Origin: Gammaproteobacteria bacterium
GTDB lineage: Bacteria > Pseudomonadota > Gammaproteobacteria > Steroidobacterales > Steroidobacteraceae
Length of the DNA stretch: 48,102 nucleotides
Assembly: GCA_028293805.1 (NCBI GenBank)
Contig: JAQGOC010000051.1
Location: forward strand, 1-48,102
Reading direction: 5' to 3'
The position numbers and the translations under genes were made by a program. Below, piece by piece: positions 6,476-27,449 of the stretch. Under the pieces are notes generated by a model. That model searched no databases, was not told where the DNA came from, and was given only the letters and a program-made list of their open reading frames with translations. The first letter of the stretch is position 1, and every line of letters begins with the position of its first letter.

Positions 6476-6701
6476 GCTCTGTGGGGTGGATTGAATTGAT
6501 TGTCGTCAGTCTCGGGAACTCCCGGTCACTGAACGGCAATCCTCGCAAGGATGCAGTAGACGGCGCCCAACATAGATCAATCGACTGACTTCATCAGTGC
6601 GCTGCCGTACTTAGGTGCAATCGCTCTACGATCGGAGTCGGCCAGTATGGGATTTCATCCGAACCACGGTGCTCTCGAAGCCACTGGCGACATCGACCAC
6701 C

Positions 6702-6985: not shown

Positions 6986-7045
6986 CTTGCTCGTTCGGCA
7001 CGTTCCATAGGCGCACTCCGTGGCACCATGCGGATCTGGTCGTAT

Positions 7046-7061
7046 CTACTCCTTTGTGTAG
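7046..7061 (+). promoter_or_regulatory. Weak copy of the island palindrome (site S1), upstream of the SDR gene
   Basis: The sequence CTACTCCTTTGTGTAG agrees with site S3 (11947-11962) at 13 of 16 positions and keeps the outer CTAC...GTAG arms. It lies 54 bp before the preferred SDR start at 7116, a spacing like that of the other copies. It is the least certain of the five sites. Confidence 0.5.
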
Positions 7062-7115
7062 TACCCACCTTGGGACTTTTCGGGTTCAATGATCGCGGTG
7101 CAAATCGAGGGGTTC

Positions 7116-7934
7116 ATGCGCGGTCTAGGTGGAAAGGTCCTATTCATCACTGGAGCGAGTCGCGGCGTTGGGAGAGCAATCGCGCTGCGGGCCGCGCGCG
7201 ACGGGGCGAAGATCGTCATTGCCGCAAAGACGACGCAACCGCATCCCCGTCTGCCTGGAACCATTTTCGACGCCGCGACGGACATTGAGGCTGCGGGGGG
7301 CGAAGCGCTGCCATTGGAGACGGACATCCGATTCGAGGATCAGGTTTACACGGCTATCGATCAGGCGGTGACGAGGTTCGGTGGAATAGACATCCTGGTC
7401 AACAACGCCAGCGCGATCAGCTTGACATCGACCCGTGAGACGCCGCTGAAGCGCTTCGATCTGATGATGGATGTCAATGTCCGCGGAACCTTCGTTTGCT
7501 CACAGGCGTGCATGCCTTGGTTGAGCAAGTCGCCTAACCCGCACATTTTGATGATTGCTCCGCCTCCCGATCTGAATGCAAAGTGGTTTGGTCCCCATCC
7601 CGCCTATACCGTTTCAAAATACGGGATGAGTCTCCTGGCCCTGGGTATAGCGGAGGAATTTCGCAGTCAGGGAGTTGCAGTGAACGCGCTTTGGCCGCGC
7701 ACCTTGATTGCTACCACGGCACTTACCATGATCGATATGCCACGTGAGGCCGCTCGCAAGCCCGAAATTGTGGCCGACGCTGCACACGAGATCCTGTGCT
7801 CGGATGCCCGGCTGACCAGTGGGAATTTCTTTATCGATGAACAGGTGTTGAGAGCGGCTGGCTGCGTGGATTTTTCGCGCTATGCCGTCTCGCCGACGCT
7901 CGAGCCCCGGTTAGATCTGTTCGTGAGTGAATGA
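7116..7934 (+). CDS. HSDL2-like short-chain dehydrogenase/reductase
   Basis: A complete classical SDR of about 272 residues. It has the cofactor-binding TGASRGVG, then IVIAAKT-QPHPRLPGTI, the NNASA motif, LMMDVNVRGTF, and the catalytic YTVSK with GMSLLALGIAEEF and VNALWPRT. These segments strongly resemble hydroxysteroid dehydrogenase-like 2 and related bacterial SDRs used in fatty acid, steroid or isoprenoid oxidation. It probably oxidises a secondary alcohol to a ketone with NAD(P), which would feed the ketone carboxylase of this island; that link is inference. An ATG at 7089 is in frame, but 7116 fits better: it has GAGG at a good distance and places the Rossmann strand normally. A candidate operator lies 54 bp upstream. 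It converges with an SDR remnant and the TonB receptor gene. Confidence 0.9.
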   Translation: MRGLGGKVLFITGASRGVGRAIALRAARDGAKIVIAAKTTQPHPRLPGTIFDAATDIEAAGGEALPLETDIRFEDQVYTAIDQAVTRFGGIDILVNNASAISLTSTRETPLKRFDLMMDVNVRGTFVCSQACMPWLSKSPNPHILMIAPPPDLNAKWFGPHPAYTVSKYGMSLLALGIAEEFRSQGVAVNALWPRTLIATTALTMIDMPREAARKPEIVADAAHEILCSDARLTSGNFFIDEQVLRAAGCVDFSRYAVSPTLEPRLDLFVSE

Positions 7935-7966
7935 CGCGCTGGCAGCTCAACCGACGATGCTGAGAA

Positions 7967-8143
7967 CCCCTTTGATCGCAGTTCCGCTACCGCCTCGGCC
8001 AGCTTCGTCCTGCGCCGCGCCGCCAGAGCCACCGCCGCACCCGCGACGGCAAGCGTTCTGGCAACGTGCAAACCGAGGCCGCTCGACGCACCCACGACCA
8101 GAGCGCACTGGCCCGTCAAATCGAAAGAGGGTTGCGCTGTCAG
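7967..8143 (-). pseudogene. N-terminal fragment of a second SDR gene
   Basis: On the minus strand, 10 bp after the TonB receptor stop, a frame reads TAQPSFDLTGQCALVVGASSG, then LGLHVARTLAVAGAAVALAARR and TKLAEAVAELRSKG. This is the first beta-alpha-beta unit of a classical SDR. Homology stops near 7967, and the frame then runs antisense into the end of the HSDL2-like gene. No ATG, GTG or TTG is present at the expected start; a CTG at 8143 sits where one would be. The gene lost about 80% of its 3' part, and was probably once cotranscribed with the receptor. Confidence 0.75.
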
Positions 8144-8153
8144 TGTGGCAGCC

Positions 8154-10496
8154 CTAATCCCACTTGTAGTCCGCTTGGATTCCGTAGGTGGCGGGGAATC
8201 CCGCGATCCTATAGACACTGTCATATCCGAGCGTCGCGTTGGTCCAGTAGTACTTGTTCGTGACGTTCCTGCCATAGAGCGTCACGTCCCAACGGCCATC
8301 TTTAGCAGCCACGCCAGCACGCAGCCCGAGGGTGGTGTACGGGTCAATGCGCAACAGGGGGCTTTCTGCCAGATCTGCAAAGGTCTTGCTGTTGTAGCTC
8401 GCGTGCGCGCCCAGAAAGCCAAACAGTTGCGCCGAGACCGGGGTTCGATATTCAGCATCTGCGTTGAGCGTTACACTCGGCGCAAAATTGAAACTGTGGC
8501 CCTTAAGCTGAACCGGATTACTGAACACATCGTAATCAATGAACGGACCGATCACAGTATGTTGGTAGGCAGCGCCGACATTGAATGTCAGTGGCTTTAC
8601 GGGGCTCCAGGTGATCGTGGCATCTGCACCATAAGAGTGAGCACTGGGAACGTTTCCCAGAGTCGGAACAGGTCCAAAGATCGGATCAACCGTGTTCGTC
8701 AGCAGCTGCTTGTTCTTGTAGTCGTAATAGTAGACGGCCCCGGAGACCTGGATCGATCGAGTATTTGCCTTGGCACCCAGTTCGTAAGAGGTGAGCTCTT
8801 CCTGTTGCACGGGTCGCAGCGACGTTCGCGTGATTGCATTGATCACCGGATAGTTGCCGGCTTTGAAGCCTCGGCTGATCAGCGCATACAGCAGGCTGGC
8901 GTCTGTGGGCTTATAATTCAGTCCGACGCGCCACGGTACATTGGTCTCGCGGAATGACTGCGGGTTGAATCCAGCCTGCAGCTTTGCGTCCAGTGTCACG
9001 CAGTCTCCGGGCAGCAAGGTGCCGGGTGTCCCGCCATCAAGTAATCCAATGAGCCCGTTGGCCACATGGGCCCAGTCGCCATTGCCTGTGTCGGCCGTAC
9101 AACTGCGATTGTGGTGCGTGACACGCGTATAACGAATACCGGCGAGCGCGCTCCACTGGCTGGTGAAATTCCACTGAACGTCACCGAACACACCGACCGA
9201 CTGATTGCTCTGAATGCCGATATTCTTGCTCTGGTGAATGGAACCCAGGCCAGGAGGAGGCAGAGGCGGAGACGAAATGTCCGTCGTACTGGACAACCCG
9301 TTGAACTGCTGAAAGCTCCCCTCGTTGTCGTGATCACCCTGGTAGTTCAGGCCCAGTACAAAATTGCCGCGCTGCTCATCCAGGGTTCCTGACAGGTGGA
9401 ACTCCTGACTATAGGCCTGCAGCCGACCGGTCGTCGTCACGTAGGCGAGATCCAAGGAGGACGCATCATTACCGTACGGGCTTTCGATAGTGGTGCTGAT
9501 GTAGTTCGACAGCGATGAAAACGTAAGATCGTTGGTCAAAAAAACATTCACGATGCCGCTGACCTGCCACTGGTGGTTGTCACGCCGATAACTTCTGCCC
9601 TGATCCCAGTCTGCAGCCCGCGGATCTGCCGGAGCGGCCGGAAACGTAAATAGAGCGGGTATCGCATTCGTTGGCACACGCGGCACCGGGAATACGAATT
9701 GGGGGATTTGGTTGTCTGATCTATCGACCCAGCCATTCACGTTCACGAGCGCGTCGACGTTGTCAGTTGGTTTCCACTCAAGGAGCCCCCTGGCCGCGTA
9801 TTTCTGGACCCGCCCGAGACTTGCGTCCCGAAGATAGTCCTGTTGCCAGTCATCCTGACGCGCGCCAATAACCGCCAAACGTGCAGTCAACGTGTCCGTC
9901 AAAGGTCCACTCACGAAGCCCTCGATCTCGCCGTAATTGAAACGCCCATAGTCGAGATGAGCCCCGCTGACAAATTGCTTTGTGGGCTTGGAAGTGACGT
10001 AATTGATCGCGCCGCCGGTCGAATTCTGGCCGTACAAGGTCCCCTGGGGTCCCTTAGATACTTCCACGTGGTCCAGATCAAACAGCGGTCCCTGTGTCAT
10101 GACCCCGTAGGGAATGGGCGTCTGGTCGTAGTACAGGCTGACGGTCGGTTGGGCACCGAGACTCGTCGCGTTGAAACCGACGCCGCGCAGGGTGTAGACG
10201 GGAGTTCCATCGGCCGCGGTGGATACCGTCAGAGACGACACGACCTGCGGGAGGTCATTTGCGCTGGTGATTCCAAGATTCTGGAGTGTATTTCCGCCAA
10301 CGGATGCGACAGTCATGCCGACGTTGACGAGCTTTTCCTCGCGCCGTTCGGCAGTTACTACAACCTCTGCGAAAGAAGAGTCCGAATCGGCGTTAGCCGC
10401 CGACGTAGAGTCTGCGGGGGCTGCGGCGCGGAGATCGAGTGACGTTGCCAGCAATGGAACGGATGCCCATAATGCAGTCGCGTATTTCGAGTTCAC
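8154..10496 (-). CDS. TonB-dependent outer-membrane receptor of the catabolic island
   Basis: The 780-residue protein has an N-terminal signal-like stretch and an alanine-rich linker. A TonB-box-like FAEVVVTAERREE follows, then a plug domain (LPQVVSSLTVS, YTLRGVGFN, VEVSKGPQGTLYGQNSTGGAINYVT) and a beta-barrel ending in an aromatic, charged terminus (YKWD), as usual for barrels. It resembles the large family of sphingomonad/gammaproteobacterial receptors linked to catabolic loci rather than siderophore receptors with known ligands. The start is a GTG preceded by GAGAGG. The palindrome S2 lies 75 bp upstream, so it is probably induced with the rest of the island and imports its substrate. It was followed by an SDR gene of which only a fragment is left. 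Confidence 0.93.
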   Translation of the reverse strand: MNSKYATALWASVPLLATSLDLRAAAPADSTSAANADSDSSFAEVVVTAERREEKLVNVGMTVASVGGNTLQNLGITSANDLPQVVSSLTVSTAADGTPVYTLRGVGFNATSLGAQPTVSLYYDQTPIPYGVMTQGPLFDLDHVEVSKGPQGTLYGQNSTGGAINYVTSKPTKQFVSGAHLDYGRFNYGEIEGFVSGPLTDTLTARLAVIGARQDDWQQDYLRDASLGRVQKYAARGLLEWKPTDNVDALVNVNGWVDRSDNQIPQFVFPVPRVPTNAIPALFTFPAAPADPRAADWDQGRSYRRDNHQWQVSGIVNVFLTNDLTFSSLSNYISTTIESPYGNDASSLDLAYVTTTGRLQAYSQEFHLSGTLDEQRGNFVLGLNYQGDHDNEGSFQQFNGLSSTTDISSPPLPPPGLGSIHQSKNIGIQSNQSVGVFGDVQWNFTSQWSALAGIRYTRVTHHNRSCTADTGNGDWAHVANGLIGLLDGGTPGTLLPGDCVTLDAKLQAGFNPQSFRETNVPWRVGLNYKPTDASLLYALISRGFKAGNYPVINAITRTSLRPVQQEELTSYELGAKANTRSIQVSGAVYYYDYKNKQLLTNTVDPIFGPVPTLGNVPSAHSYGADATITWSPVKPLTFNVGAAYQHTVIGPFIDYDVFSNPVQLKGHSFNFAPSVTLNADAEYRTPVSAQLFGFLGAHASYNSKTFADLAESPLLRIDPYTTLGLRAGVAAKDGRWDVTLYGRNVTNKYYWTNATLGYDSVYRIAGFPATYGIQADYKWD

Positions 10497-10571
10497 GATT
10501 CCGCCTCTCGCCGTTCACGCTCGTACCATCGCGCTACGACTGAAACCTATCAAACGCCAGCCCGTCGCGAA

Positions 10572-10587
10572 CTACACGATCGGGTAG
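10572..10587 (-). promoter_or_regulatory. Island palindrome, site S2, upstream of the TonB receptor
   Basis: Read on the minus strand this is CTACCCGATCGTGTAG, preceded by an A-run (GCAAAAA). It matches S3 at 15 of 16 positions and lies 75 bp before the receptor GTG. The near-identity with S3 and the matching A-run make chance unlikely. Confidence 0.8.
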
Positions 10588-10674
10588 TTTTTGCAATCAA
10601 CTGCTGCGATTGAGAAATGGGGACAAAAGCAACACTCTATCGGCCGTTCTCGCCCAAGGCTTCAAGAGCCACGC

Positions 10675-11847
10675 TTAAGAGATCGGTAGCACGGTGACCG
10701 GGATCGGACCTTCGGCCTTGAAGCCGTAGCGCTTGTGAGAGCCGATTACCACGGTCTCGAAATATGCCATTCCACGCTCTCGTCCTTGCGTCACGTGCGC
10801 AGGACCGATGTATCCGTTGTAAGGATATCGGGCGCCAGAGGGATCCACTGAGAACCGGCCGTCGTGGCGCCAGATGTCGCTTTCGATGTGGTACTCGCCC
10901 CGATAGACACCCATGCCGCGATCGTCCGTCCAACCGCGACGTTCAAGAGCGTAGCCAAACGCAGAAGTGACGGAAGGGGTGTGGCTGGGTTCGATCAGGA
11001 GGTCGTATAGAACCCCTTGAGAGTCGCTTATGAGGCAGCGCGCTCGTGTGACCTTGCGTGAGTCGGCAACGTACTCGAGATGGTGTTCGACCCGGGTAAT
11101 GGGCGAGATGCGCCCGTCGGCGAAATCCATTCGTCCTTCGGCAACCGCGATCGTTCCGGATGCGTCCTCGTGAATCTGGAAGTACACAATATACGATGGC
11201 ATGTGGGCGAAGACCACCAATCGCAGCAAGCCATCCCGGCCTTCAGGAAGATTAGGGGTAGGCACCAGGTCTTCCGGTCGAAGGCTCGGCCCCACTGACT
11301 GCCGGGTTCCCCAGGAATGATCCATGACACAAAACCAGCTATTGGTGTCGATTTCAATTTTCCGCTCGCCCAGTCGGATCCACCCCGAAGGGCGGCCGGC
11401 TTGCCAGTAGCGGATGAGATCGCGAATTACCCGACCGTTCAGACGCTCGGTCTTACGGTCTTCAGCGTAGGGCTGATGTCGCTTTTCCCACAATATTTCG
11501 AATTCGAGGCCGCCGTGGCGCTCTGGCGTTGCTAAGCTAAGACGTCGTCGGCTGAGTCCATCGAGAATCTCCAGCTTGAGCGGCAGCACTTCAAGGTCAT
11601 CCGGGCGGAGCGACCATCTGCGCGACATACGCGTGACCGCCAGGTCGCCGCCCCGCATCAGTGCTACATAACCTTCCATCACATCCATGTTCGTGTACAC
11701 GCGCAATCCCATAGCCAGCGAGATTTCCCCCGCCGAATCCCAAACGCAAAAGTAGTAGCCGTCACTCCAGGTAAGATCGCTCGATGCCACGTGCGCCATG
11801 GTTTCAACGATCTGATGGCGCGGGAAATCGTCCATCTTCGTCAGCAT
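10675..11847 (-). CDS. Uncharacterised D-H-S-W-G family protein, copy A (DUF7064/DUF7065-like)
   Basis: About 390 residues, soluble, with no signal peptide. I do not know its function. It shares a motif and layout with two proteins at 14845-16844: an N-terminal strand-rich region (DGYYFCVWDSAGEISLAMG), a central MDHSWGTR at about residues 175-182, and a C-terminal part ending in RYPYNGYIGPAHVT and a Y-G-F segment. From memory this resembles the DUF7064/DUF7065 group, with a lipocalin-like fold related to CrtC/AttH proteins; this needs a profile search. An ATG at 11892 is in frame, but 11847 has GAGGA seven bases upstream and is preferred. It is divergent from the phosphotransferase operon and shares the S3 intergenic region, so joint control is likely. 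Confidence 0.8.
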   Translation of the reverse strand: MLTKMDDFPRHQIVETMAHVASSDLTWSDGYYFCVWDSAGEISLAMGLRVYTNMDVMEGYVALMRGGDLAVTRMSRRWSLRPDDLEVLPLKLEILDGLSRRRLSLATPERHGGLEFEILWEKRHQPYAEDRKTERLNGRVIRDLIRYWQAGRPSGWIRLGERKIEIDTNSWFCVMDHSWGTRQSVGPSLRPEDLVPTPNLPEGRDGLLRLVVFAHMPSYIVYFQIHEDASGTIAVAEGRMDFADGRISPITRVEHHLEYVADSRKVTRARCLISDSQGVLYDLLIEPSHTPSVTSAFGYALERRGWTDDRGMGVYRGEYHIESDIWRHDGRFSVDPSGARYPYNGYIGPAHVTQGRERGMAYFETVVIGSHKRYGFKAEGPIPVTVLPIS

Positions 11848-11946
11848 GAAGTCGTCCTCGGTTAGGGATGAAGGCGGGAGCGCAGCCGGCATATGAGCGC
11901 GATCATGGCTTATAATGCAGCCTAAACTGTCGCTGCGTGCGCAAAA

Positions 11947-11962
11947 CTACCCGTTCGTGTAG
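11947..11962 (+). promoter_or_regulatory. Island palindrome, site S3, in the divergent promoter region
   Basis: CTACCCGTTCGTGTAG, preceded by CAAAA, lies 71 bp before the phosphotransferase ATG at 12034 and 99 bp from the ATG of the divergent gene at 11847. It could serve one or both directions. It differs from the perfect palindrome S4 at one position. Confidence 0.85.
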
Positions 11963-12033
11963 GGCTCAGTATCGGTCGTTCGGCTAAGCTCAGTTACTAA
12001 CGCTCTCAGGTGTCGGCCCTGCGTGAGGGGGAT

Positions 12034-14841
12034 ATGAATCGGGATCCGCGCGCGGTATCGGGCGGCGCTGCAGCTGGCCGTGCTGAAGTTCATTCGGTCC
12101 GGGTGGAGCGGCCCGCACCGATGATGGCGGCAGGCGATGACTTGGTACGCGCATTCGAAAGCATTGGCTCCGGTGACCTGGCGCAGGTGGGCGGGAAGGG
12201 AGCCAACCTGGGCGAATTGGTACGCGCCGGGCTGCCAGTCCCGAGCGGCTTCTGTGTCACGGCCGGTGCGTATCGGCAGTTCCTGCAACTGACCGGTGTC
12301 GGCGACAAAATCGACCAACTGTTGGAATCGGCAACCCCCGACGCAGCGGACTATGACGGGTTATCGAAGCGGATTCAGCAGACAATCCATTCGGCGCCCA
12401 TTCCAGCTGCCATTGCTGAGTCAGTCGCAGCAGCCTACCGAGATTTGGTCAAAGCTGCGGGTACCCCGCAGGTAGCCGTTCGTTCTTCCGCGACGGCGGA
12501 GGATCTGCCCGGCTTCTCTTTCGCCGGTCAGCAGGATACATATCTCGGCATCAGTGGGGAAGCCGCGTCTGTGGATGCGGTCCGCCGTTGTTGGGCGTCT
12601 CTGTGGACGAGCCGGGCGATCTCCTATCGGCAGACCCACGGATTTCGCCACCGAGACGTCTACATTGCCGTCGTCGTGCAGGAAATGTTCGCATCGGAAG
12701 TCTCCGGCGTGATGTTCACTGCGAATCCTCTGACGGGAGACCGCCGATACGTCGTTATCAATGCGAGCTGGGGGTTGGGAGAGGCTATCGTCTCCGGGCT
12801 CGTGTCGCCGGATTACTGGACCTTGGACAAGGCAACGGGTCGCATGCTCGAGGAGCGCCTCGGGGACAAAGCAGAGCGGATCGACCAGGAGGTGGGTTCT
12901 TCCGGCGTCGTGCACTCCAACGTCGGCGAGGTAGAGCGAGCGCGTCCCTGCCTGACTGCAGATCAATTGACGGAGCTGGCTCGAATCGGCCGCCTCATCG
13001 AAGAGCACTACGGATTTCCCCAGGATGTCGAGTGGGGTTATGCCCATGGGCGCTTTGCGATTCTCCAGGCACGCGAAGTCACCGGCGTCGAGATCGATTT
13101 CGGCGAGGAGCTGGATCGCTGGAATCGGACCGAGCCCGATGACGATGAGATTGTCTGGAGTAGGGCGTGGGCGGATGCGTTCCAAACTTCGCCGACGACG
13201 CCTTTGATGTACTCGATCCAGCAGAGCTTCATCGCGCGCTCGTACGATGACATGTACAAGTTGTACGGGTTGAAGTCGTTCCTTCGAAGCCGGATGTACC
13301 GCTGGCACCGTACTCGACCCTATTACAGTTCGAAGTATGAGGCGGCACGCCTAACCCTCATGCCGCGCATCGCGCGCACCGACGACGCGCTCGCATTTAT
13401 TGCGCCAGAGGACCGCGAGCGCGTGCGTGCGCTTCCTTTTAAATGGTGGGTGGTGGCATACGCCCAGATCCACGCTCTATTCACAGAGCCACGCTACTCC
13501 TTCTGGCAGTGTGCGGACACGTTTTATAAGGAGTTCCCGGGGCAGGTCAGTCGGTACAAAGCGGCCATGTCCATCGATTTCGGAACGGCTTCGTACGAGC
13601 AGCTCATGGAGTGCTTCCGGACATCCGAGCAGTGTTTCCTCGAACATGCCCGTTCCACCACACCGGGCATCATGGACTATTGTTACTTCCTGATCCTTGC
13701 GTTGGGCGAGATGCTGCGGCACTGGGCGGGCGACCGCGATCAGTCAAAGTTCGGCTCTTTGCTCTCAGGCCTGTCCACACGCACCGTTCAAGAGAACATT
13801 GAAATCTGGCACATTGCACGGCGCATCACCCCGAGCCCGCATTTACGCGCACTGTTCAGGGAAGAAGATCCAGTCCGTATCCTGGCTGAGCTACCTAAAT
13901 CTCCCGAGGGGGCGGCGTATTTGACCGAGGTACGTGCGTTCATCGCGGAAAACGGACATCGAGGCGGTTCTGAGCGCGATCTGGCCTTCCCGCGCTGGCG
14001 GCATCGACCTGAGCTTCTCCTGAGTGCACTGCGAACGCTGAGCTCCGGAGACGCCTCATCCGATCCCGAACTGACCGAAACACGGATGCGAGAGCGCCGA
14101 GAGCGGATCACGCACGAAGTGACCGATGAACTGCGATGCAAGCCGGGCGGAAGATTCAAGGCTGCGCTTTTCCAACTCGTTCTGCGATGGACCCTCAAGT
14201 ACGTACGGATGCGCGACGATCAGCGCTACTACGCGGACTATTACATGGGCGCGCGGCACGACATCTTCCTTGCTCTCGGCGCCCGATTGGTCGATAGCAA
14301 GTTAATCCCATCTCCGGACCAGATATTCTTTCTGGGCCTGCAGGAGGTTGATGATCTCTGGAACAGACGACTTTCAGCCGCCGCCGCGGCGCGCCGGATA
14401 CAAGCTCGACAAACGCAGCACCAGAAATACACCCGCCAAGCCCCGCCATTCTACGTTCGCGGCGGCTTGCCGCTGGTTTCGGAAGAGGAACTCAAGGACA
14501 GTTCCGCGCTGAGTGGAATTCCGGCGAGTTCTGGGCGCGTCCATGCTCGCGCGCGCGTATGCCGTACCCTGGAGGATGCCCGCCGCCTGCAGAAGGGCGA
14601 TATTCTGGTCGCGACCGCAACAGATCCGGGCTGGACCGCGGTGTTCAGCATTATCGCGGGTGTTGTCGTGGAGACCGGCGGACCACTGGCTCATGCGACG
14701 CTGGTTTCACGAGAGTATGGAATCCCATGCGTGACTAATGTCAATCGGGCAACAGAACGCATTGCAGACGGCGCAATGATCACAGTGGATGGCAATGCGG
14801 GTCGGATACTGTTGCATCAAGCAGCGACGGCGGATGCATAG
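12034..14841 (+). CDS. Dikinase-type phosphotransferase, rifampicin phosphotransferase-like architecture
   Basis: About 935 residues. Residues 20-330 are a pyruvate-phosphate-dikinase ATP-binding domain, with GGKGANLGELVRAGLPVPSGF, VRSSATAEDLPGFSFAGQQ, MFTANPLTG, SWGLGEAIVSG and PQDVEWGY. A middle region of some 500 residues is unlike known domains to my eye. The C-terminal end is a phosphohistidine swivel domain, with GGPLAHATLVSREYGIPCV and the presumed phospho-His at about residue 887. There is no PEP-binding barrel after the swivel, so it is not a PEP synthase. The order ATP-grasp, substrate domain, His domain is that of rifampicin phosphotransferase, which moves the beta-phosphate of ATP to a small-molecule hydroxyl. 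A GTG at 12010 is in frame, but the ATG at 12034 follows GAGGGGG. It heads an operon with two D-[HR]-SWG proteins and the LAL regulator, under S3. The substrate is unknown, and a ligase role as in PigC is possible. Confidence 0.85.
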   Translation: MNRDPRAVSGGAAAGRAEVHSVRVERPAPMMAAGDDLVRAFESIGSGDLAQVGGKGANLGELVRAGLPVPSGFCVTAGAYRQFLQLTGVGDKIDQLLESATPDAADYDGLSKRIQQTIHSAPIPAAIAESVAAAYRDLVKAAGTPQVAVRSSATAEDLPGFSFAGQQDTYLGISGEAASVDAVRRCWASLWTSRAISYRQTHGFRHRDVYIAVVVQEMFASEVSGVMFTANPLTGDRRYVVINASWGLGEAIVSGLVSPDYWTLDKATGRMLEERLGDKAERIDQEVGSSGVVHSNVGEVERARPCLTADQLTELARIGRLIEEHYGFPQDVEWGYAHGRFAILQAREVTGVEIDFGEELDRWNRTEPDDDEIVWSRAWADAFQTSPTTPLMYSIQQSFIARSYDDMYKLYGLKSFLRSRMYRWHRTRPYYSSKYEAARLTLMPRIARTDDALAFIAPEDRERVRALPFKWWVVAYAQIHALFTEPRYSFWQCADTFYKEFPGQVSRYKAAMSIDFGTASYEQLMECFRTSEQCFLEHARSTTPGIMDYCYFLILALGEMLRHWAGDRDQSKFGSLLSGLSTRTVQENIEIWHIARRITPSPHLRALFREEDPVRILAELPKSPEGAAYLTEVRAFIAENGHRGGSERDLAFPRWRHRPELLLSALRTLSSGDASSDPELTETRMRERRERITHEVTDELRCKPGGRFKAALFQLVLRWTLKYVRMRDDQRYYADYYMGARHDIFLALGARLVDSKLIPSPDQIFFLGLQEVDDLWNRRLSAAAAARRIQARQTQHQKYTRQAPPFYVRGGLPLVSEEELKDSSALSGIPASSGRVHARARVCRTLEDARRLQKGDILVATATDPGWTAVFSIIAGVVVETGGPLAHATLVSREYGIPCVTNVNRATERIADGAMITVDGNAGRILLHQAATADA

Positions 14842-14844
14842 ATC

Positions 14845-15828: not shown

Positions 15829-16844
15829 CGCTGAACGCCGAGGACGAGCTTCGCCATTCACCAAGCGGCGCCCCATTTTGGCGCGAAAGTCTCTATTGGA
15901 ACTTCAATGATGTTCGCCAGGACGTCGGTGCCTGGATCTATTTTTGGGTGCTGCCCGGCCCACCCACACAATCTGGATTGATCATCAGCTTCTATCACGG
16001 GGGCTGGCCCGATACGGGGATTTACGATCGAGCCATGGCGCAGCCGCTGCATTGTCTGCGCGAAAGCGATCGGTGGATCTACTGCTTCCAACATAAAACG
16101 GAGCAGTTGGTCAGCTGTGACTTCGACGCGTTCGAGCTCGGTGGCCTGAAGGTCGAGCGCCTCGGACCACTCGAGCGTCAGAGGCTGGTGTTCGACGATG
16201 GACAGGGCAGTGGATTCAATCTTGAGTCCACGTTTTTAATGCCTCCCTACGATTACGCGAACGGCGCGCATCCAACTCCGAGCTGGATGGCGACCAATCG
16301 ATACCATCGAAGTCAGCGCATGCGGGGCGAGCTGCGCATCGCAGGCAAAGTATATGTCATTGACTGCTCGGGTGATTCAGACCACAGCTGGGGTACGCGG
16401 GATTGGGCGACCATGGCGCGTCACGTACTCAAGATGTGGTCGTTTCAGACAGACGATGGCAAGCTCGCTGCCTCGGTGATTAATCAGGGCACCGACGAGG
16501 GCGTTCTGGCTCTGGGGTACATCAACATCGACGGCCAGATCGGCTCGGCGAAGAAGATCGAATCGGAGGATCGATTCGATGCGAATGGCGTGCAGACTCG
16601 GACTGAAGTCACTATCTTCGACGAGCGCGACCGAGTCGTGCGCGCTGTGTGCCCTTCCCTGCACTCCTACATTGGTTGGCGAGTCGGGGTAAGCGGCGAG
16701 TTTTGGGGCTACGAAGGCGTTGGAACATACGAAATCGAAGGCCAAGGCCGAGTTCCCGGCGCAACGTCGTTTTTCTGGCCCCACCGATATACGCCGCGTG
16801 ACCTCACGAAGGCAGACTTGGGATCCAAGAAACACACCGCTTGA
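15825..16844 (+). CDS. Uncharacterised D-H-S-W-G family protein, copy C (DUF7064/DUF7065-like)
   Basis: 339 residues from the ATG that overlaps the stop of copy B. It begins MTLNAEDELRHSPSG and carries LYWNFNDVRQDVGAWIYFW, matching the WWNF region of copy B, and a central DSDHSWGTRDW at about residues 184-194. KMWSFQTDDGKLAASVINQG and a C-terminal FWGYEGVGTYEIEG follow. Copies A and C share the DHSWGTR form, while B has DRSWGGSR, so B may be functionally distinct. It is soluble, with no export signal. The LAL regulator gene follows within 50 bp, so all four genes are probably one transcript. Confidence 0.8.
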   Translation: MTLNAEDELRHSPSGAPFWRESLYWNFNDVRQDVGAWIYFWVLPGPPTQSGLIISFYHGGWPDTGIYDRAMAQPLHCLRESDRWIYCFQHKTEQLVSCDFDAFELGGLKVERLGPLERQRLVFDDGQGSGFNLESTFLMPPYDYANGAHPTPSWMATNRYHRSQRMRGELRIAGKVYVIDCSGDSDHSWGTRDWATMARHVLKMWSFQTDDGKLAASVINQGTDEGVLALGYINIDGQIGSAKKIESEDRFDANGVQTRTEVTIFDERDRVVRAVCPSLHSYIGWRVGVSGEFWGYEGVGTYEIEGQGRVPGATSFFWPHRYTPRDLTKADLGSKKHTA

Positions 16845-16891
16845 CCGGAGGTTCGAAGCGGTGGAAGGTAAGCATGTGCGAGGGGGATTTT

Positions 16892-19597
16892 ATGCGAGCG
16901 TCAGCGGACGAAGCATGGGCCAAAGGACCATCCTATAAATTCGTCGTACCGATGCCGATCGCCGGCGGGATTCGGCGCGAGGGCATTCTCCAGCGCATCG
17001 CGAGCCACGAGCACTTACACTTGGTGGTGTTGCAAGCTCCTGCCGGGCACGGAAAGTCAACGGCTCTGCAGCAGATCAAGGAAGTTGCGGATGAGGAAGG
17101 TTATCTCACCGGCTGGTTGACATTTGATGCGGGGGACAACGACCCGCGCCGCTTCTTCATGCATTTTCAATCGCTGCTGGTTCGCACGATCGGAGCGGTC
17201 GGCAAAGGTGAGACTCGGCGCGGACAGGTGGGTGCGTCGTACCGCTGCGACTGGCTCTTTGAGCATCTGGACCGGCTGGAGAAACCCGTCGCGTTGTTTC
17301 TAGATGATTTCCACGCTCTGAGCGACAAGACGGTCCTGTCATTCTTCCGGCTGTTGTTCGAGCGCGCGCCGGAAAAGTTACGCATCTACCTCGGCTCACG
17401 TTCGCTACCGGACGTGGGCCTCACAAGGTTGATTGTCAATAATCGGGCCGTCATTCTTCAGGCCGATGATCTTAGATTCAGCCCGCAGGAAGTGGAGTGC
17501 TTCTTCGCAGGGGCCGCGGACTCCCTTATTCAAGTGGATGAGATCGATGCGATCTATCGGCGCACCGAGGGTTGGCCAGCCGCACTGCAGTTGTTCAAGT
17601 TGACGTTGAATAGCGCGGATGTCCGAAGGTCACTGACCGGCGATGACGTCCGTGCTCCGCGCGAGCTGGCGGAATACCTCGCGGAGAATGTTCTCGCGCT
17701 GCAACCGCCGCGTATTCAGGACTTACTGCTTCGAACCGCCGAGCTCACGCGCCTGAACGGCCCCTTGTGCAACGAGCTACTGGAGCGGACTGATTCGGCC
17801 GAGGTCCTGTTACAGCTCGAGAAATCAGGGATGTTCCTGCGCTGCGTTGACCCGCGAGGCGGTTGGTTCAAGTACCACCCCTTGTTTTCATCCATCCTGG
17901 CCGATCAGCAGCGTGGCCGGGATCCTGAAGCAGTCGCCGCGACACATCGGCGCGCGGCGGGCTGGTACATGAAACACCGTCTCTACGAGGAGACCGTTCA
18001 TCATGCGACGCTGTGCGGCGAGTACTCGCTGGCGGCGGATGCGTTGAATCTATGGTCGTCCAGCCTAATCGCGAATGCTCACCTGCTCACGGTGGAACGT
18101 TGGAGCGAGCGAATTCCGTTCGAGGAAATAGCTCGTCGACGGGATCTGGCTATCAAGTGCACCTATGCCCTTGTATTTTTGAGGCGCCGACAACGCGTGA
18201 AGCCGCTCTTGGAACTCCTGCAGAGCTGGTCGGGCACTGGAAACGTCTTGGAAACGACGGATCCCCACGTTGTCCTCTCGATGGCGGCTATTTCTGCCAA
18301 CGATGATGAGAGGGCGTTTGCGCTCACCGCAAAAGTCCCGTTGGATCGACTGGACGCCGAGGGCTTTGCGGCATTCGAGTTGGGCGCCTGTGCGAACCTG
18401 CGGGGATACTGTGCTCTCTCGGCTCAGGAATCCGAATGGGCACGCGAGTATCTTGCCTTGGCGCGTGTTCATAATGACCACGCAGCGGCCGCTTTCAGTC
18501 GCGCCTATACGATTGCGGTAAACGGCGTGGCGCTGCTGTTACGCGGAGCGCTGACCGAGGCCTTGGAGAAGTTCAGGGAGGGACTGCAAGGCCACCCGGT
18601 CATGGAAAACTCATTTGCGTTTGCAGCCTTGATTTCCTGCTATGTGTGGGCCCTGTACGAGGCCAATGACCTGGAGACCGCGCAACGCCTCTTTGAACAG
18701 AACCACGACATCATCTCTGAGTCCACACTGCCGGACTTCCTGGCCGTCGCGTATCTTTCCAGTGCCCGTGTACACGATGCGCGTGGGCGACACGCGAAGG
18801 CGGAGTCTCTTCTCGAAGAAGCGGAAGCCATCGGTCGAAGCAGCGGCTGGTATCGCCTGGTCGAGGCAGTCAGCGCTGAGCGCGTTAGACGTGCGCTGTT
18901 GGGCGGCTTAGTGGACGTTGCCACCTCCGTAGCCGGCTGTATGTGCGCGGCACGCGACTCCGGCGGGAGCCAATGGATTCCGTTCGGGAATGACGTCGAG
19001 GACCGGCAGCTATGCGCGATCCGCGTGGCCTTGGCGACTTCCCGCCTTGATGCAGCGTACGAGTTGATCCAGGGCGAGTTGAAGCGGCAGCGGGACCGCG
19101 TGCTCCGGCAGGTCAAGTTGTATCTGCTGCTAGCACTTCATGGCGCACGGGGGGGCGATTGCACCGCCGCGCAACGTAATCTTTGTACGGCGCTCAAACT
19201 GGCGCGGCCCGGCGGTTTCATTCGACCGATTCTGGATGAGGGGGAGCAGATTCTGCAGCTGCTGCGTGACCGGTACCAGATTCTGCTCGAGTCCGACCCG
19301 GGCGCCTCGCGCCCGGATCCGGTCCGCGAGTTCGTCGCCAAGCTGCTTGAGGCCTCGGGCACCGATCTCGGCCGGACAGCCGGAAGGCTCCACTTTGCGG
19401 TTCAGCCCTTGACCGAGCGTGAGCGCGAGATGCTCACGATGCTCGCTAACGGGACCTCAAACAGGGAAATGGCGCAGCAGCTGTTCGTTTCCGAGAATAC
19501 CGTGAAGTTCCACCTGAAGAATATCTATGCAAAGCTCTCGGTAGCGTCGCGTGTGCAGGCGATCTCGACCGCGCGTCAGTTCGGAATTATTCACTAG
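16892..19597 (+). CDS. MalT/AcoK-type (LAL) LuxR-family transcriptional regulator
   Basis: About 900 residues. The N-terminus has a Walker A motif (APAGHGKST), and VALFLDDFHAL fits a Walker B with the sensor segment LRIYLGSRSLP. A long helical, TPR-like region forms the middle. The last 65 residues form a LuxR helix-turn-helix: LTEREREMLTMLANGTSNRE, MAQQLFVSENTVKFHLKNIY, AKLSVASRVQA. This is the ATP-dependent activator class of MalT, AlkS and AcoK. The frame is open from a TTG at 16841 that overlaps the previous stop. ATG codons at 16874 and 16892 both have Shine-Dalgarno sequences; GAGGGGG before 16892 is the stronger. It sits between the phosphotransferase operon and an aco-like operon, as acoK does beside acoABCD in Klebsiella. 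It is the best candidate to bind sites S1-S5. Confidence 0.92.
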   Translation: MRASADEAWAKGPSYKFVVPMPIAGGIRREGILQRIASHEHLHLVVLQAPAGHGKSTALQQIKEVADEEGYLTGWLTFDAGDNDPRRFFMHFQSLLVRTIGAVGKGETRRGQVGASYRCDWLFEHLDRLEKPVALFLDDFHALSDKTVLSFFRLLFERAPEKLRIYLGSRSLPDVGLTRLIVNNRAVILQADDLRFSPQEVECFFAGAADSLIQVDEIDAIYRRTEGWPAALQLFKLTLNSADVRRSLTGDDVRAPRELAEYLAENVLALQPPRIQDLLLRTAELTRLNGPLCNELLERTDSAEVLLQLEKSGMFLRCVDPRGGWFKYHPLFSSILADQQRGRDPEAVAATHRRAAGWYMKHRLYEETVHHATLCGEYSLAADALNLWSSSLIANAHLLTVERWSERIPFEEIARRRDLAIKCTYALVFLRRRQRVKPLLELLQSWSGTGNVLETTDPHVVLSMAAISANDDERAFALTAKVPLDRLDAEGFAAFELGACANLRGYCALSAQESEWAREYLALARVHNDHAAAAFSRAYTIAVNGVALLLRGALTEALEKFREGLQGHPVMENSFAFAALISCYVWALYEANDLETAQRLFEQNHDIISESTLPDFLAVAYLSSARVHDARGRHAKAESLLEEAEAIGRSSGWYRLVEAVSAERVRRALLGGLVDVATSVAGCMCAARDSGGSQWIPFGNDVEDRQLCAIRVALATSRLDAAYELIQGELKRQRDRVLRQVKLYLLLALHGARGGDCTAAQRNLCTALKLARPGGFIRPILDEGEQILQLLRDRYQILLESDPGASRPDPVREFVAKLLEASGTDLGRTAGRLHFAVQPLTEREREMLTMLANGTSNREMAQQLFVSENTVKFHLKNIYAKLSVASRVQAISTARQFGIIH

Positions 19598-19609
19598 CGC
19601 GCTCAGAAT

Positions 19610-19625
19610 CTACCCGTTCGGGTAG
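19610..19625 (+). promoter_or_regulatory. Island palindrome, site S4, perfect copy upstream of the E1/E2 operon
   Basis: CTACCCGTTCGGGTAG is a 7-bp inverted repeat (CTACCCG/CGGGTAG) around TT. It lies 13 bp after the regulator stop and 77 bp before the E1alpha ATG. It is the only copy with full two-fold symmetry outside the central two bases. Confidence 0.85.
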
Positions 19626-19630
19626 TGCGG

Positions 19631-19651
19631 TGCGCCTCTTTGAAAGGCGCA
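19631..19651 (+). repeat. Short hairpin between operator S4 and the E1alpha gene
   Basis: TGCGCCT and AGGCGCA form a perfect 7-bp stem around a 7-base loop. It has no T-run, so it is not a typical terminator. It could lie in the 5' leader of the E1alpha mRNA or be a second protein-binding site. Confidence 0.4.
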
Positions 19652-19702
19652 ATACTCAAAGCGCACAATCGGGGCTCGAACCATTGACCCTCAGGAACAG
19701 GC

Positions 19703-20662
19703 ATGAATGAGCGGCAGCTTCTGGGCCTCTACGAGGGGATCTTGCGGTGCATGCTTTGGGAGCAAGGGCTTATGAGCATGCAGGCCGAAGGTCGCATCTC
19801 GGGTTTCTATCATTCCGGCCGCGGGCAGGAGGGAGTACAGGTCGGCGCGATCGCAGCGATGGCGCCCCAGGACTATCTGCTGTACGCCCACAGAGGTTGC
19901 GGATACATGATCGCCCGCGGTATGCCGATGGAGGTCGTGTACTCGGACTTCCTCGGCATGATGGAGGGTTCAACCCGCGGAATCGGTGCCGGCATCGTTC
20001 ACATCGCCTGGCCGTCTCTGGGAATCCTGGGACAAAGCGGGACCCTCGGCGGATCCTTCACCATCGCGGTAGGCGCCGCTTTATCTGCGCGGATTCGCAA
20101 GGAGAACAAAGTCGTTGTCTGTTTCTTTGGCGACGGCACAGCGAATCGCGGGACCTTCCACGAGGCTGCGAATGCGGCCGGTGTTTGGAAGCTGCCCATT
20201 GTGTGGTTGTGCGAGAACAATGGGTGGGCGGTTTCGACGACGTTCAAGGAAAGCTGCGCCGTGAGCAGCATTGCGGAGCGAGCTGCGGGATATGGCATGC
20301 CGGGAGTCGTGGTTGATGGCCAGGATTCCGCCGCCGTGCATGAGGCCACTCGTGTTGCGATCGAGCGCGCGCGCAGCGGCGGTGGCCCCACCTTAATCGA
20401 GGCACTCACCTGCCGCTTCCGCGGACACTACGAAGGCGACGCCCAGGAATATCGAGACCGAGGTGAGTTGGATCGGCAGAGAAAGGACCGCGACCCAGTG
20501 GAGATCATGGCAGCCCGAATCCGTTCATCCGTTCCAAACGCTGAAAAGGAGCTCGAAGCAATCAGTGAGCGGGTGAAATCGGAGGTTGCTGGCGCGGCTG
20601 AGAAAGCCAAGTCAGGCACAATGCCGCCAAGATCACGGATTTATGACTACGTCTACGCATAG
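19703..20662 (+). CDS. 2-oxo acid/acetoin dehydrogenase-type E1 component, alpha subunit
   Basis: 319 residues, the usual size for this subunit. It has the ThDP motif FFGDGTANRGTFHEAANAAG (GDG at 143-145) ending in WLCENN at about 169-173. HRGCGYMIARG, GGSFTIAVGAALSAR and the C-terminal LIEALTCRFRGHYEGDAQEYR are also typical of E1alpha. AGGA precedes the ATG. It heads an operon with E1beta and E2, behind site S4. The closest general fit is the acetoin dehydrogenase/pyruvate dehydrogenase group (AcoA-like). The complex would cleave an alpha-hydroxyketone or oxidatively decarboxylate a 2-oxo acid to an acyl-CoA. Which substrate applies cannot be told from the sequence. Confidence 0.93.
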   Translation: MNERQLLGLYEGILRCMLWEQGLMSMQAEGRISGFYHSGRGQEGVQVGAIAAMAPQDYLLYAHRGCGYMIARGMPMEVVYSDFLGMMEGSTRGIGAGIVHIAWPSLGILGQSGTLGGSFTIAVGAALSARIRKENKVVVCFFGDGTANRGTFHEAANAAGVWKLPIVWLCENNGWAVSTTFKESCAVSSIAERAAGYGMPGVVVDGQDSAAVHEATRVAIERARSGGGPTLIEALTCRFRGHYEGDAQEYRDRGELDRQRKDRDPVEIMAARIRSSVPNAEKELEAISERVKSEVAGAAEKAKSGTMPPRSRIYDYVYA

Positions 20663-20672
20663 GAAACGAATC

Positions 20673-21671
20673 GTGGCACGCGCTATCACTTACTCCGAGG
20701 CGCTGACTGAGGCGCTGGCAGAAGAACTCGATCGCGACCCAACCGTGTTCTTCATGGGGGAGGACATCGGCTACGGAGGCGTGTTTGGTTTCGCGCACGG
20801 ACTGCAGAAGCGCTTCGGTGCTGAGCGCGTATTCAACACCCCAATATCGGAAACGTTGATTGTTGGGGCTGGTGTCGGCGCTGCGATTACGGGCACTCGC
20901 CCGGTGGTCGAGTTGCAGTTCGCCGATTTCGTCGCTATCGCGATGGACGAGATCTACAACAAAGCGGCGAAATGGCGTTACATGCACGGCGGCCAGTTCA
21001 GTGTTCCGCTCGTGATTCTTGCTCCGGAGGGCGCTATCGGCGGAGCCGGTCCCGAGCACTCGCAATGTCCGGAAGCGTTGTTTTGGTCAGCGCCAGGACT
21101 TTACGTGTTGACTCCCAGCAGTCCCGCCGACATGAAGGGGCTTCTCAAGAGCGCCATTCGAGATCCCAACCCAGTACTGATAATGCCACACAAGGCGCTC
21201 CTCAACACCAGTGGCGAGGTGCCCGACGGCGACCACCTCGTACCGTTGGGGCAAGCGGCGGTCTGTAGGGCCGGTTCGGACGTAACGGTTGTCGCCTGGT
21301 CGGCAATGGTTCCGAAGGCACTTGAGGCTGCACGACAGTTGAAGGGTGAGATCGACCTGGAAGTGGTAGACCCGCGGGGGATTCGACCGTTTGATTTCGA
21401 AGCTGTGCTCACTTCCGTGCGCAAGACTGGCCGTCTCGTTATCGCGCACGAGGCCTCCGTAGTTGGGGGACCTGGGGCAGAAGTCGCAGCGGTAGTAGCG
21501 GAGAAAGCCATTCTACATTTGGAGGCGCCGATTCGACGCATAGGTGCCGCCGACATCCCGATTCCGCAGAGCTCATTCCTGGAGCGCTGGGTGATTCCGC
21601 AGGTAGATGACATCATCAACGCGGTGCGCGAGACCAGCGGCAAGGCCGTAAGCGCGGCGAAGCTCGCCTGA
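20673..21671 (+). CDS. 2-oxo acid/acetoin dehydrogenase-type E1 component, beta subunit
   Basis: 332 residues from a GTG (MARAITYSEALTEALAEEL) that lies 10 bp after the E1alpha stop and has AGGAAA seven bases upstream. A longer frame with an ATG at 20643 overlaps E1alpha and is less likely. Hallmarks are GEDIGYGGVFG, RVFNTPISETLIVGAGVGAA, ELQFADFVAIAMDEIYNKAA, LAPEGAIGGAGPEHSQ, VLTPSSPADMKGLLKSAI and EVVDPRGIRPFD. It forms the E1 heterotetramer with the preceding gene product and binds ThDP at the subunit interface. It matches AcoB-like and pyruvate dehydrogenase E1beta proteins. Confidence 0.93.
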   Translation: MARAITYSEALTEALAEELDRDPTVFFMGEDIGYGGVFGFAHGLQKRFGAERVFNTPISETLIVGAGVGAAITGTRPVVELQFADFVAIAMDEIYNKAAKWRYMHGGQFSVPLVILAPEGAIGGAGPEHSQCPEALFWSAPGLYVLTPSSPADMKGLLKSAIRDPNPVLIMPHKALLNTSGEVPDGDHLVPLGQAAVCRAGSDVTVVAWSAMVPKALEAARQLKGEIDLEVVDPRGIRPFDFEAVLTSVRKTGRLVIAHEASVVGGPGAEVAAVVAEKAILHLEAPIRRIGAADIPIPQSSFLERWVIPQVDDIINAVRETSGKAVSAAKLA

Positions 21672-21692
21672 TTGCCAAGAATTCACTAGATC

Positions 21693-22847
21693 ATGTTCGG
21701 CATTCAGCTGGCCCGGCAGGGGCAGACGATGGAACACGGCACGCTCGTCGAATGGAAGAAGCGAGAAGGCGATGACATGCTCGTGGGCGAGGAGCTGTAT
21801 GAGGTCGAAACCGAGAAGGCCGTTGTTCCGATCGAAGTGACCCGCCCAGGGCGGCTGCTGAAATTGTTGGTACAGCCCGGTGAGAATGTAAGTGTCGGCA
21901 CTACACTCGCACTCGCAGCCGATCCAGGGGAGTCCGTGCCGAGCGCGGAGATCGACGCAGCTGTGCGGCGGTCGCGTGGGGTGGTCGAATCCTCTGCATC
22001 GGCTGGAGAGAAGTCAGTCGCGTCCGGTGCTGAATCAAGCTCCGGACCTCCTTCGGGCGCTAACAGGCCGGTCGCAGTGCCGAAAGCACGCGCGCTCGCG
22101 CAAGAGTTGGGCTTCGACCTGACGCGGGTTCGGGGATCCGGCGAGGGCGGCACGATCCTACCGCAAGATGTGCGCAAAGCAGCCAGCGCAGCTACCGCGA
22201 AGCTCCGTCGCGTTCCGCTGACGCCGATCGCGCGCACAAGCATCGCCGCGCTCGAACGAGCGTCCCAGATTCCCCAGTTCACGCAGGGAGTGCTGGTGGA
22301 TGCCACCGGACTGGAGAAGGCAAAGGCCGCGAGCGGACGGTCGCTTTCTTATATGGATTTTTTCCTCGAAGCGATTGTCAGGGCGGCAGCTCAAGTACCG
22401 GACGTCCTGGCGAGTATTGCGCAGAATGAGATGGTCTACAGCGAGACGGTCGACATCACCATTGCGACCGCAACCGATGCCGGCCTGCTGATCCCCGTAT
22501 TCCGCGACGCGGGAGGCATGTCCATTGAGCAACGTGCGCCGAGGTGGCGCCAACTCGTACGGAGCGCTCGCGCCGGCACACTCACTGTTCAGGAGATGTC
22601 GGGTGGGATTGTTGCTTTGTCCAATCTTGGAACGCGAGGCATCGATTACGGCACGCCCCTTCTGCCATATGGGCACTCGGCGATTATTTTCATCGGCGCG
22701 CTGGCGACCCGGCCCATGGTAGTGGATGAGAAGCTTACCGCTCGGCCATCGTTACACCTTGCCGTAACCTATGACCATCGAATCGCCGATGGACTGCTGG
22801 CCTCTCGTTTTACACATGCAATACACGACGCGCTGCTCACCCCCTAG
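21693..22847 (+). CDS. Dihydrolipoamide acyltransferase (E2 component)
   Basis: 384 residues. The lipoyl domain is residues 1-77 with the lipoylated Lys42 in EVETEKAVVP. An alanine/serine-rich linker leads to a peripheral-subunit-binding domain at about 126-164 (PKARALAQELGFDL, GSGEGGTILPQDV). The catalytic domain ends in TYDHRIADG, with His362 and Asp366 of the H-x3-D-G motif. It moves the acyl group made by E1 to CoA. The Shine-Dalgarno sequence is poor, so its translation may depend on the upstream genes. No dihydrolipoamide dehydrogenase (E3) gene follows; it must be supplied from elsewhere. Site S5 of the next operon starts 24 bp after the stop. Confidence 0.93.
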   Translation: MFGIQLARQGQTMEHGTLVEWKKREGDDMLVGEELYEVETEKAVVPIEVTRPGRLLKLLVQPGENVSVGTTLALAADPGESVPSAEIDAAVRRSRGVVESSASAGEKSVASGAESSSGPPSGANRPVAVPKARALAQELGFDLTRVRGSGEGGTILPQDVRKAASAATAKLRRVPLTPIARTSIAALERASQIPQFTQGVLVDATGLEKAKAASGRSLSYMDFFLEAIVRAAAQVPDVLASIAQNEMVYSETVDITIATATDAGLLIPVFRDAGGMSIEQRAPRWRQLVRSARAGTLTVQEMSGGIVALSNLGTRGIDYGTPLLPYGHSAIIFIGALATRPMVVDEKLTARPSLHLAVTYDHRIADGLLASRFTHAIHDALLTP

Positions 22848-22870
22848 TGCGCAGGCGCCTTAGCGAAAAA

Positions 22871-22886
22871 CTACCCGTTCGAGTGG
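22871..22886 (+). promoter_or_regulatory. Island palindrome, site S5, upstream of the ketone carboxylase operon
   Basis: CTACCCGTTCGAGTGG, preceded by GCGAAAAA, is 52 bp before the first carboxylase ATG. Its left arm is identical to S3 and S4, and its right arm carries two changes from the perfect palindrome. The A-run before it matches S2 and S3. Confidence 0.8.
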
Positions 22887-22938
22887 TGCTTACCGGACCC
22901 GCCACGCGTCGAATTGAGGCGGCGACCCGGAGAGGCGA

Positions 22939-25283: not shown

Positions 25284-25293
25284 GGTTCATAAC

Positions 25294-27429: not shown

Positions 27430-27449
27430 CCGCATTTATGGAGCGCCCT

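Follow-up and report, generated by a model that had tools for sequence, protein, structure and literature searches.

In contig JAQGOC010000051.1 of a Gammaproteobacteria bacterium (Steroidobacteraceae; GenBank assembly GCA_028293805.1), of which the 48,102 nucleotides analysed are termed the window, an island of catabolic genes carries five copies of a 16-bp palindrome with the consensus CTACCC-N4-GGGTAG. Judged from sequence, this palindrome is very likely the operator of the large ATP-binding LuxR (LAL, MalT-family) regulator encoded in the island at 16841–19597, through which the regulator would activate the island operons. The motif, its link to one type of LAL, its place before orthologous operons and a preferred distance to the −10 element all emerge from comparison with relatives.

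The sites and their immediate surroundings are listed below, with offsets given as bp beyond the palindrome. Scores are from a weight matrix trained on 28 sites, all of them outside the window and picked for likeness to the consensus.

7046–7061 (+): palindrome CTACTCCTTTGTGTAG ahead of the short-chain dehydrogenase (SDR) gene, weakest of the five; score 14.9; −10-like TTCAAT at +23 (7085–7090)
10572–10587 (−): palindrome, CTACCCGATCGTGTAG on the minus strand, ahead of the TonB receptor gene; score 22.7; TAGGTT at +22 (10544–10549)
10588–10592 (−): A-run, AAAAA on the minus strand, on the promoter-distal side of site 10572
11943–11946 (+): A-run before site 11947, seen in the sequence
11947–11962 (+): palindrome CTACCCGTTCGTGTAG between divergent genes; score 23.1; TAAGCT at 11985–11990 (+) and TAGGCT at 11919–11924 (−), both at +22
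19610–19625 (+): perfect palindrome CTACCCGTTCGGGTAG (12/12), 13 bp past the LAL stop and ahead of the E1/E2 operon; score 26.2
22866–22870 (+): A-run before site 22871, seen in the sequence
22871–22886 (+): imperfect palindrome CTACCCGTTCGAGTGG (10/12) ahead of the ketone-carboxylase operon; score 19.6; TCGAAT at +22 (22909–22914)
31618–31633 (+): sixth match CTACCCACATGGGTAT (11/12), inside an acyl-CoA-synthetase-type gene of the island gene run; score 14.5

The five sites are the top five 16-mers of the window by the matrix, followed by 31618 and then a drop to 8.3, so that the five copies proposed in an earlier note on this DNA, the weak 7046 included, are all confirmed in place. In the control loci (640,774 bp) no position scores 14.86 or more, and one reaches 14.46. 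A search of the window with the 16-mer CTACCCGTTCGGGTAG at up to 3 mismatches gives 4 places (7 strand-wise matches), versus a mean of 0.29 and a largest count of 2 in 100 shuffles. Site 7046 stands 4 mismatches from this 16-mer, counted by eye, and matches CTACCC-N4-GGGTAG at 10/12, equal to 22871. The window sites are mostly of the form CTACCCG-NN-CGKGTAG. The sixth match, 31618, is probably a chance occurrence; 0.075 such matches are expected per window at its score, and no good −10 element is found at +21 to +24 on either side. The A-run that had been reported ahead of three copies is real and recurs: in 13 of 45 sites matching at 11/12 or more, AAAA adjoins the site directly (background 0.0019 per position). 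It lies on the promoter-distal side at 10572, 11947 (+) and 22871, where the alpha subunit of the polymerase may make contact with it.

Similarly shaped palindromes were found directly behind several LAL homologues of relatives. Most palindrome-bearing LALs show the recognition helix [ST]ENTVKFHLK (one has TENTVKYHLK and one TEHTVRFHLK), and most LALs without the palindrome show other recognition helices; the helix of the window LAL is SENTVKFHLKNIYAKL. Two loci, L081 and L087, display the helix type with no such site nearby. The helix class was defined after viewing 16 LAL loci among 18 stretches and was then applied to 80 new loci, drawn from the species collection with an alignment of six LALs. 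Removal of 9 short proteins (under 700 aa) and of 6 near copies (L170, L186 and four from Xanthomonas) from the 103 LAL rows left 88, of which 45 have the helix [VI][KR][FY]H[LV][KR] and 43 do not.

An unguided search of the 350-bp flanks of the LAL genes, covering 4,096 six-base half-sites at 11 spacers (0–10) with no motif supplied, placed CTACCC with spacer 4 first among the 45 helix-type LALs. It occurs downstream of 14 of the 45 (next non-shift word, 5) and on either side of 17 (next word, 8). For the 43 other LALs it is not among the eight leading words, and the leaders there are unrelated to it and stand at 5 or 6. Counted directly, a site of at least 11/12 is present in these flanks in 17/45 helix-type LALs and 0/43 others, in counts that treat relatives as independent, as do those that follow. 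For 29 permuted half-sites at 11/12 the corresponding means are 0.07 (maximum 1) for the 45 and 0.17 (maximum 2) for the 43. With the six loci that had suggested the motif left out the result is 12/39 versus 0/43, and the 80 newly drawn loci alone give 12/36 versus 0/36 (Fisher p 1.6e-4). At 10/12 the numbers are 21/45 (permuted mean 1.72, maximum 6) and 0/43, and a site of at least 11/12 anywhere in the locus examined is found in 21 of 44 helix-type loci and in none of the 40 others. A tree built without the helix-turn-helix (HTH) columns has the helix type on two deep branches and the site on both. The earlier suggestion that the LAL is the binder thus gains support from sequence comparison, in that the motif stands beside one helix type in alpha-, beta- and gammaproteobacteria and beside none of the other-helix LALs examined.

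Whole genomes show the same association. Of 28 hand-picked genomes with a helix-type LAL, 16 had earlier shown a site of at least 11/12 in the LAL locus; the control consisted of 27 genomes, from 28 loci picked for a LAL without the helix. The exact palindrome CTACCC-N4-GGGTAG occurs 21 times in 15 of the 28 and once in the 27 control genomes, versus 10 and 20 occurrences of the reversed control pattern. Among the 12 helix-type genomes with no previously shown locus site, 6 have an exact one, compared with 1 of the 27 (Fisher p 0.0017). The lone control match (contig C8 of genome G561, locus L248) lies 91 bp ahead of a TonB-dependent receptor gene and about 600 bp behind a LuxR-type regulator gene whose helix is TENTVKFHLK; the regulator gene is cut by the stretch end and a cyclophilin gene intervenes between regulator and site. 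Because this site is near a TENTVKFHLK regulator, the exception itself obeys the rule.

In the source genome (5.77 Mb in 392 contigs, the window being contig C210), CTACCC-N4-GGGTAG with at most one mismatch is found at 7 places, 4 of them in the window, whereas the reversed pattern is found at 28. A genome full of unrelated copies had been named as an outcome that would speak against a regulon, and this is not what is seen. The earlier statement that no copy was seen outside the island holds within the window, as 31618 is in the island; the genome has the 3 further places. The only exact matches are 19610 and position 14540 of contig C60, each directly behind a TVKFHLK-type LAL gene. The second LAL (9577–12387 in locus L072, contig C60) has the same helix type and its own exact palindrome, CTACCCAAAAGGGTAG, and the gene after this palindrome encodes a hydantoinase A-type protein. 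Farther along the C60 locus there is a relative of the window TonB receptor (27% identity). The central four bases of the C60 palindrome are unlike those of the window sites, a difference that may keep the two regulons apart. The other two places, C58:6507 and C99:953, are both within open reading frames (ORFs) and were taken as chance matches. Among 274 genomes of the class, the exact form CTACCCG-NN-CGGGTAG is limited to the source genome and genome G357. The G357 site was also taken as chance rather than as an operator, because it lies inside an ORF and no TVKFHLK-type helix is encoded within the 12 kb examined.

The motif is also kept ahead of orthologous operons, whereas its absence there had been named in the earlier note as an outcome that would speak against the regulon. 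Ten operons with a window-type HyuA1 and a 5′ end were examined, and all ten display a site upstream. These are the operons of the window, Solimonas flava (L231), S. marina (L234), Burkholderia (L236, L237, L238), a proteobacterial bin (L130), Zhongshania (L131), Sphingopyxis (L138) and a Spongiibacteraceae bin (L139). In L131 and L238 HyuA1 is partial at the contig end, and L124 is without the 5′ end. The HyuA1 relatives are 43–71% identical over the part seen, and the sites are situated about 50 to 470 bp ahead of the first aligned HyuA1 residue; the site of L130 is within the last bases of the LAL ORF. The window site 22871 (10/12) is the weakest of the ten. A 16-mer identical to 11947 is present in Solimonas marina (L233) and S. 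flava (L231/L232), and the three Burkholderia loci have second sites identical to 19610. Hydantoinase/carboxylase relatives are found in 31 of 43 helix-type LAL loci (window excluded) and in 1 of 40 loci without the helix.

Twenty site-adjacent genes were scanned. They encode hydantoinase A or B, TonB receptors, MMPL transporters and zinc-type alcohol dehydrogenases, and also SDR, pyrroloquinoline quinone (PQQ) dehydrogenase, a Rieske-type oxidoreductase, a porin, a DUF1295 protein, an avidin-domain protein and one unmatched product. Places with one mismatch in the 28 genomes were followed to the locus for part of those among the matches listed. In Methylibium (L240, 6707–6742) two exact palindromes occur 20 bp apart, start to start, ahead of a PQQ alcohol dehydrogenase gene; with a spacing of about two helix turns the pair looks like a tandem operator. 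In Paraburkholderia (L189, 4268–5432) a 16-mer identical to 19610 lies 345 bp ahead of an avidin-family domain gene.

The sites show a preferred distance to a −10-like element. TANNNT was counted at each distance from 45 sites, which include mutual relatives, in both directions (90 flanks); this repeats, without hand orientation, a separate count of 38 sites oriented by hand. TANNNT begins at offset 22 in 13 of the 90 flanks, against a mean of 0.56 for the other offsets, of which offset 23 has 5 and all the rest at most 2. In the window, three of six promoter directions strictly have TANNNT at +22 (10572 −, 11947 + and 11947 −). A −10 at +22 would bring the palindrome right up against the −35 region, the arrangement of class II activators. 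Transcription would start 34–35 bp past the palindrome (22 bp, plus 6 bp, plus about 6–7), with the palindrome covering about −50 to −35. The predicted starts precede the start codons of the genes beginning at 10496 (−), 11892 (−), 12010 and 22939. For the SDR gene the predicted transcription start near 7096 is past the ATG at 7089, which argues for translation from 7116. A spacing of 52–77 bp from each copy to a start codon had been claimed. It holds for 22871 (52 bp), 10572 (75 bp) and 19610 (77 bp), but site 11947 is 47 bp from the GTG at 12010 (and 54 bp from the divergent gene), and the 54 bp at 7046 is obtained with the start at 7116 and not with the first ATG of the ORF.

The closest known system is MalT of Actinoplanes sp. 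SE50/110, a LAL activator with the geometry that is predicted here (PMC7567727). The Actinoplanes palindrome, TCATCC-5nt-GGATGA, overlaps the −35 region at 17 transcription starts in one large region, and the 3′ end of the motif is 34.4 ± 1.0 bases from the transcription start, compared with the 34–35 predicted here. Its authors, who also found the motif in related regions, take the region to have been transferred horizontally (PMC7567727). A fixed distance of this kind is displayed by the present sites as a group, by the count at +22. The differences are the half-site CTACCC with spacer 4, the occurrence in Pseudomonadota and the ketone-carboxylase genes.

A mechanism can be proposed that takes in binding, dimerization, an inducer, activation and autoregulation. 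The LAL protein, which has a MalT-like NTPase module, would bind ATP and a pathway inducer and self-associate; two C-terminal LuxR-type helices would read the two half-sites. A dimer on the palindrome, which spans about −50 to −35 and adjoins a −35 box that is poor or missing, would recruit RNA polymerase to the −10 element 22 bp farther on. The one palindrome at 11947 may serve two divergent promoters. The LAL gene is the last in a probable operon that starts at 12010 behind this site, which makes positive feedback likely; the LAL would thereby raise its own synthesis. Uptake by the TonB receptor and ketone carboxylation would be switched on together with the SDR and the 2-oxoacid dehydrogenase. 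As to the earlier proposal that the genes are joined in one pathway, co-regulation is well supported, but not the chemistry linking the genes.

Several findings weigh against this interpretation. Of the 45 helix-type LALs, 28 have no 11/12 site within 350 bp; some of them have sites elsewhere on the contig and for others none was found. Likewise, 13 of the 28 helix-type LAL genomes lack an exact site. Independent pairs on the tree number only 5, and on average 1.3 show the site with the helix, 0 the opposite and 3.7 no difference. Predicted ORFs contain 17 of 51 site rows, although some of these ORFs are doubtful (a simple longest-first choice) and some rows represent one site in overlapping loci. 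TANNNT is missing at +22 on either side of 33 of the 45 sites. This includes the best palindrome, 19610, which has nothing good at +21 to +24. A weak promoter-like pair, TTGAAA-18-CACAAT, begins at 19640 and, as a guess, would place this site near −58. Finally, no site precedes a second carboxylase-like set in S. marina (L234, 2992–7755), which neighbours a LAL that lacks the helix. This acetone-carboxylase-like set and its surroundings span 124–7755 of the locus, and its LAL is 29% identical. The absence of this operator there points to another type of operator among carboxylases under LAL control.

It is unlikely that the LAL binds the sites mainly as a repressor. Polymerase can also be blocked by a site next to the −35 region, and negative regulation is described for SCO6993, a protein of the LAL family (PMC9628970); however, a simple scan gave 2 promoter-like pairs in 16 kb, none overlapping a site, and the predicted geometry equals that of an activator, the Actinoplanes MalT (PMC7567727). 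Quite improbable, too, is that the palindrome is the operator of another island-borne regulator with the LAL a mere neighbour. Some sites do lie kilobases from the LAL gene, yet the presence of the site tracks the LAL helix type through three proteobacterial classes, and the sole exact site in the control genomes is again near such a helix.

Very improbable is a role of the sites as intrinsic terminators or RNA hairpins, although several are just past a stop codon, the sites have 6-bp arms around a 4-base centre, and at 10572, 11947 and 22871 one strand has a T-run after the site. None of the five is among the 17 terminator-like matches of 6900–23100, the three T-runs are on the strand with no known gene end there, and the preferred distance to a −10-like element also speaks against termination. 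Rfam at gathering thresholds gives no match in the window. There is next to no chance that a short repeat with no regulatory role, spread by mobility or duplication, gave rise to the five 16-mers, which are near-identical and all lie within 16 kb, as their flanks are 17–38% identical versus cores sharing 11–15 of 16 bases, and their place before orthologous operons is conserved in other genera.

With the palindrome taken as the operator of the LAL, comparison with known operators is possible. AlkS of Pseudomonas putida GPo1, acting at PalkB, is also a LAL/MalT-type catabolic activator; its operator is an inverted repeat, and it stimulates the expression of its own gene (PMC8784404). It differs in its 20-bp inverted repeat and alkane pathway, the likeness being by description and not by operator sequence. 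TpdR of Rhodococcus jostii TMP1 is likewise a LAL activator of a catabolic operon, but its proposed site is a 15-nt direct repeat (PMC6099782) rather than a palindrome. Direct repeats, GGGGA(T/G)GAGG, are also given for E. coli MalT (PMC7567727, PMC6099782), and the present site, an inverted repeat of CTACCC, is not of that type. PAS regulators of Streptomyces with a LuxR-type helix recognise a 16-bp operator in the −35 region, CTVGGGAWWTCCCBAG (PMC9774167), with the same 6-bp arms and 4-bp centre. The arms differ, however (CTVGGG versus CTACCC), and Pfam shows no PAS match in the window regulator. CTACCC is also seen within the operator of a different regulator (PMC4349456).

The window LAL itself displays the sequence features of its family, with a length near 900 aa, an N-terminal STAND/AAA NTPase, a MalT-like TPR middle part and a C-terminal GerE domain. 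Residues 37–437 match the MalT structure 8bob_C (E 1.3e-39). Pfam TPR_MalT (1.3e-24) and GerE (1.5e-21) are above the cut-offs, and the AAA and nSTAND matches are below the curated cut-offs. For the GerE domain the NarL structures 1je8 and 8u3b are among the matches listed. NarL binds heptamer pairs arranged as 7-2-7, with the heptamer TACYYMT. The half-site here begins alike (TAC-CC), but the arms are 2 bp closer, TACCC-N4-GGGTA versus TACCC-N6-GGGTA, and with spacer 4 winning the unguided search the site is not a NarL 7-2-7 operator. Neither the operator, nor the helix-operator pairing, nor the ketone-carboxylase tie was found in the open-licence literature among the matches listed, where an unseen report is possible. 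The mechanism proposed is of a known kind.

LAL regulators are common, and few of them have a known operator. On present sequence data it is somewhat more probable than its opposite that proteobacterial LALs with the TVKFHLK helix, widespread and apparently undescribed, read one operator across two deep LAL branches and three classes, travel with ATP-dependent hydantoinase/ketone-carboxylase and TonB genes, and activate from a rigid distance of 22 bp ahead of the −10 element, so that helix plus operator forms a regulon code. If true, this code would allow regulons of uncultured bacteria to be read off sequence alone. A single short sequence from which regulator, promoter and target operon can all be predicted would allow the ketone-carboxylase regulon to be drawn in cultured and uncultured bacteria, and the operator offers a candidate inducible promoter. 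For biochemists, a PEP-utilising phosphotransferase, a TonB receptor and a 2-oxoacid dehydrogenase, seemingly unrelated, would be joined in one regulon. The wider helix-operator pattern deserves a proper survey.

The genes of the island that border the sites are the following.

7116–7934 (+): SDR, Pfam adh_short; start likely 7116, not 7089
8154–10496 (−): TonB-dependent receptor (Pfam), target of site 10572, which is 75 bp upstream
10675–11892 (−): 405-aa protein with no match in Pfam, divergent target of site 11947
12010–19597 (+): probable operon, judged from ORFs that abut or overlap and from Pfam
12010–14841 (+): phosphotransferase of 943 aa with PPDK_N and PEP-utiliser mobile domains
14845–15828 and 15687–16844 (+): DUF7064/DUF7065-type proteins (Pfam)
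16841–19597 (+): LAL regulator of 918 aa, proposed binder
19703–22847 (+): probable operon for E1-alpha, E1-beta and E2 of a 2-oxoacid dehydrogenase (Pfam)
22939–29708 (+): ketone-carboxylase operon, HyuA-like from 22939, acetone carboxylase gamma from 24867, HyuA-like from 25294 and HyuB-like from 27240

In the carboxylase operon the Pfam matches are Hydantoinase_A, Acetone_carb_G and Hydantoinase_B. The phosphotransferase at 12010–14841 is reminiscent of phenylphosphate synthase-type phosphotransferases. Its relatives in 369 genomes, among the matches listed, are mostly of the PEP synthase type and match the N-terminal part only; two full-length relatives among them are 27% identical. It was tried as a guide to orthologous islands and dropped, the matches being mostly ordinary PEP synthase-type proteins, and the LAL was used instead. 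The loci compared with the island proteins contain no relative of it, so this island may activate its substrate differently. Beside the island, the minus strand at 1682–5428 encodes one long protein in which CheB, CheR, PAS, histidine kinase and receiver domains are fused.

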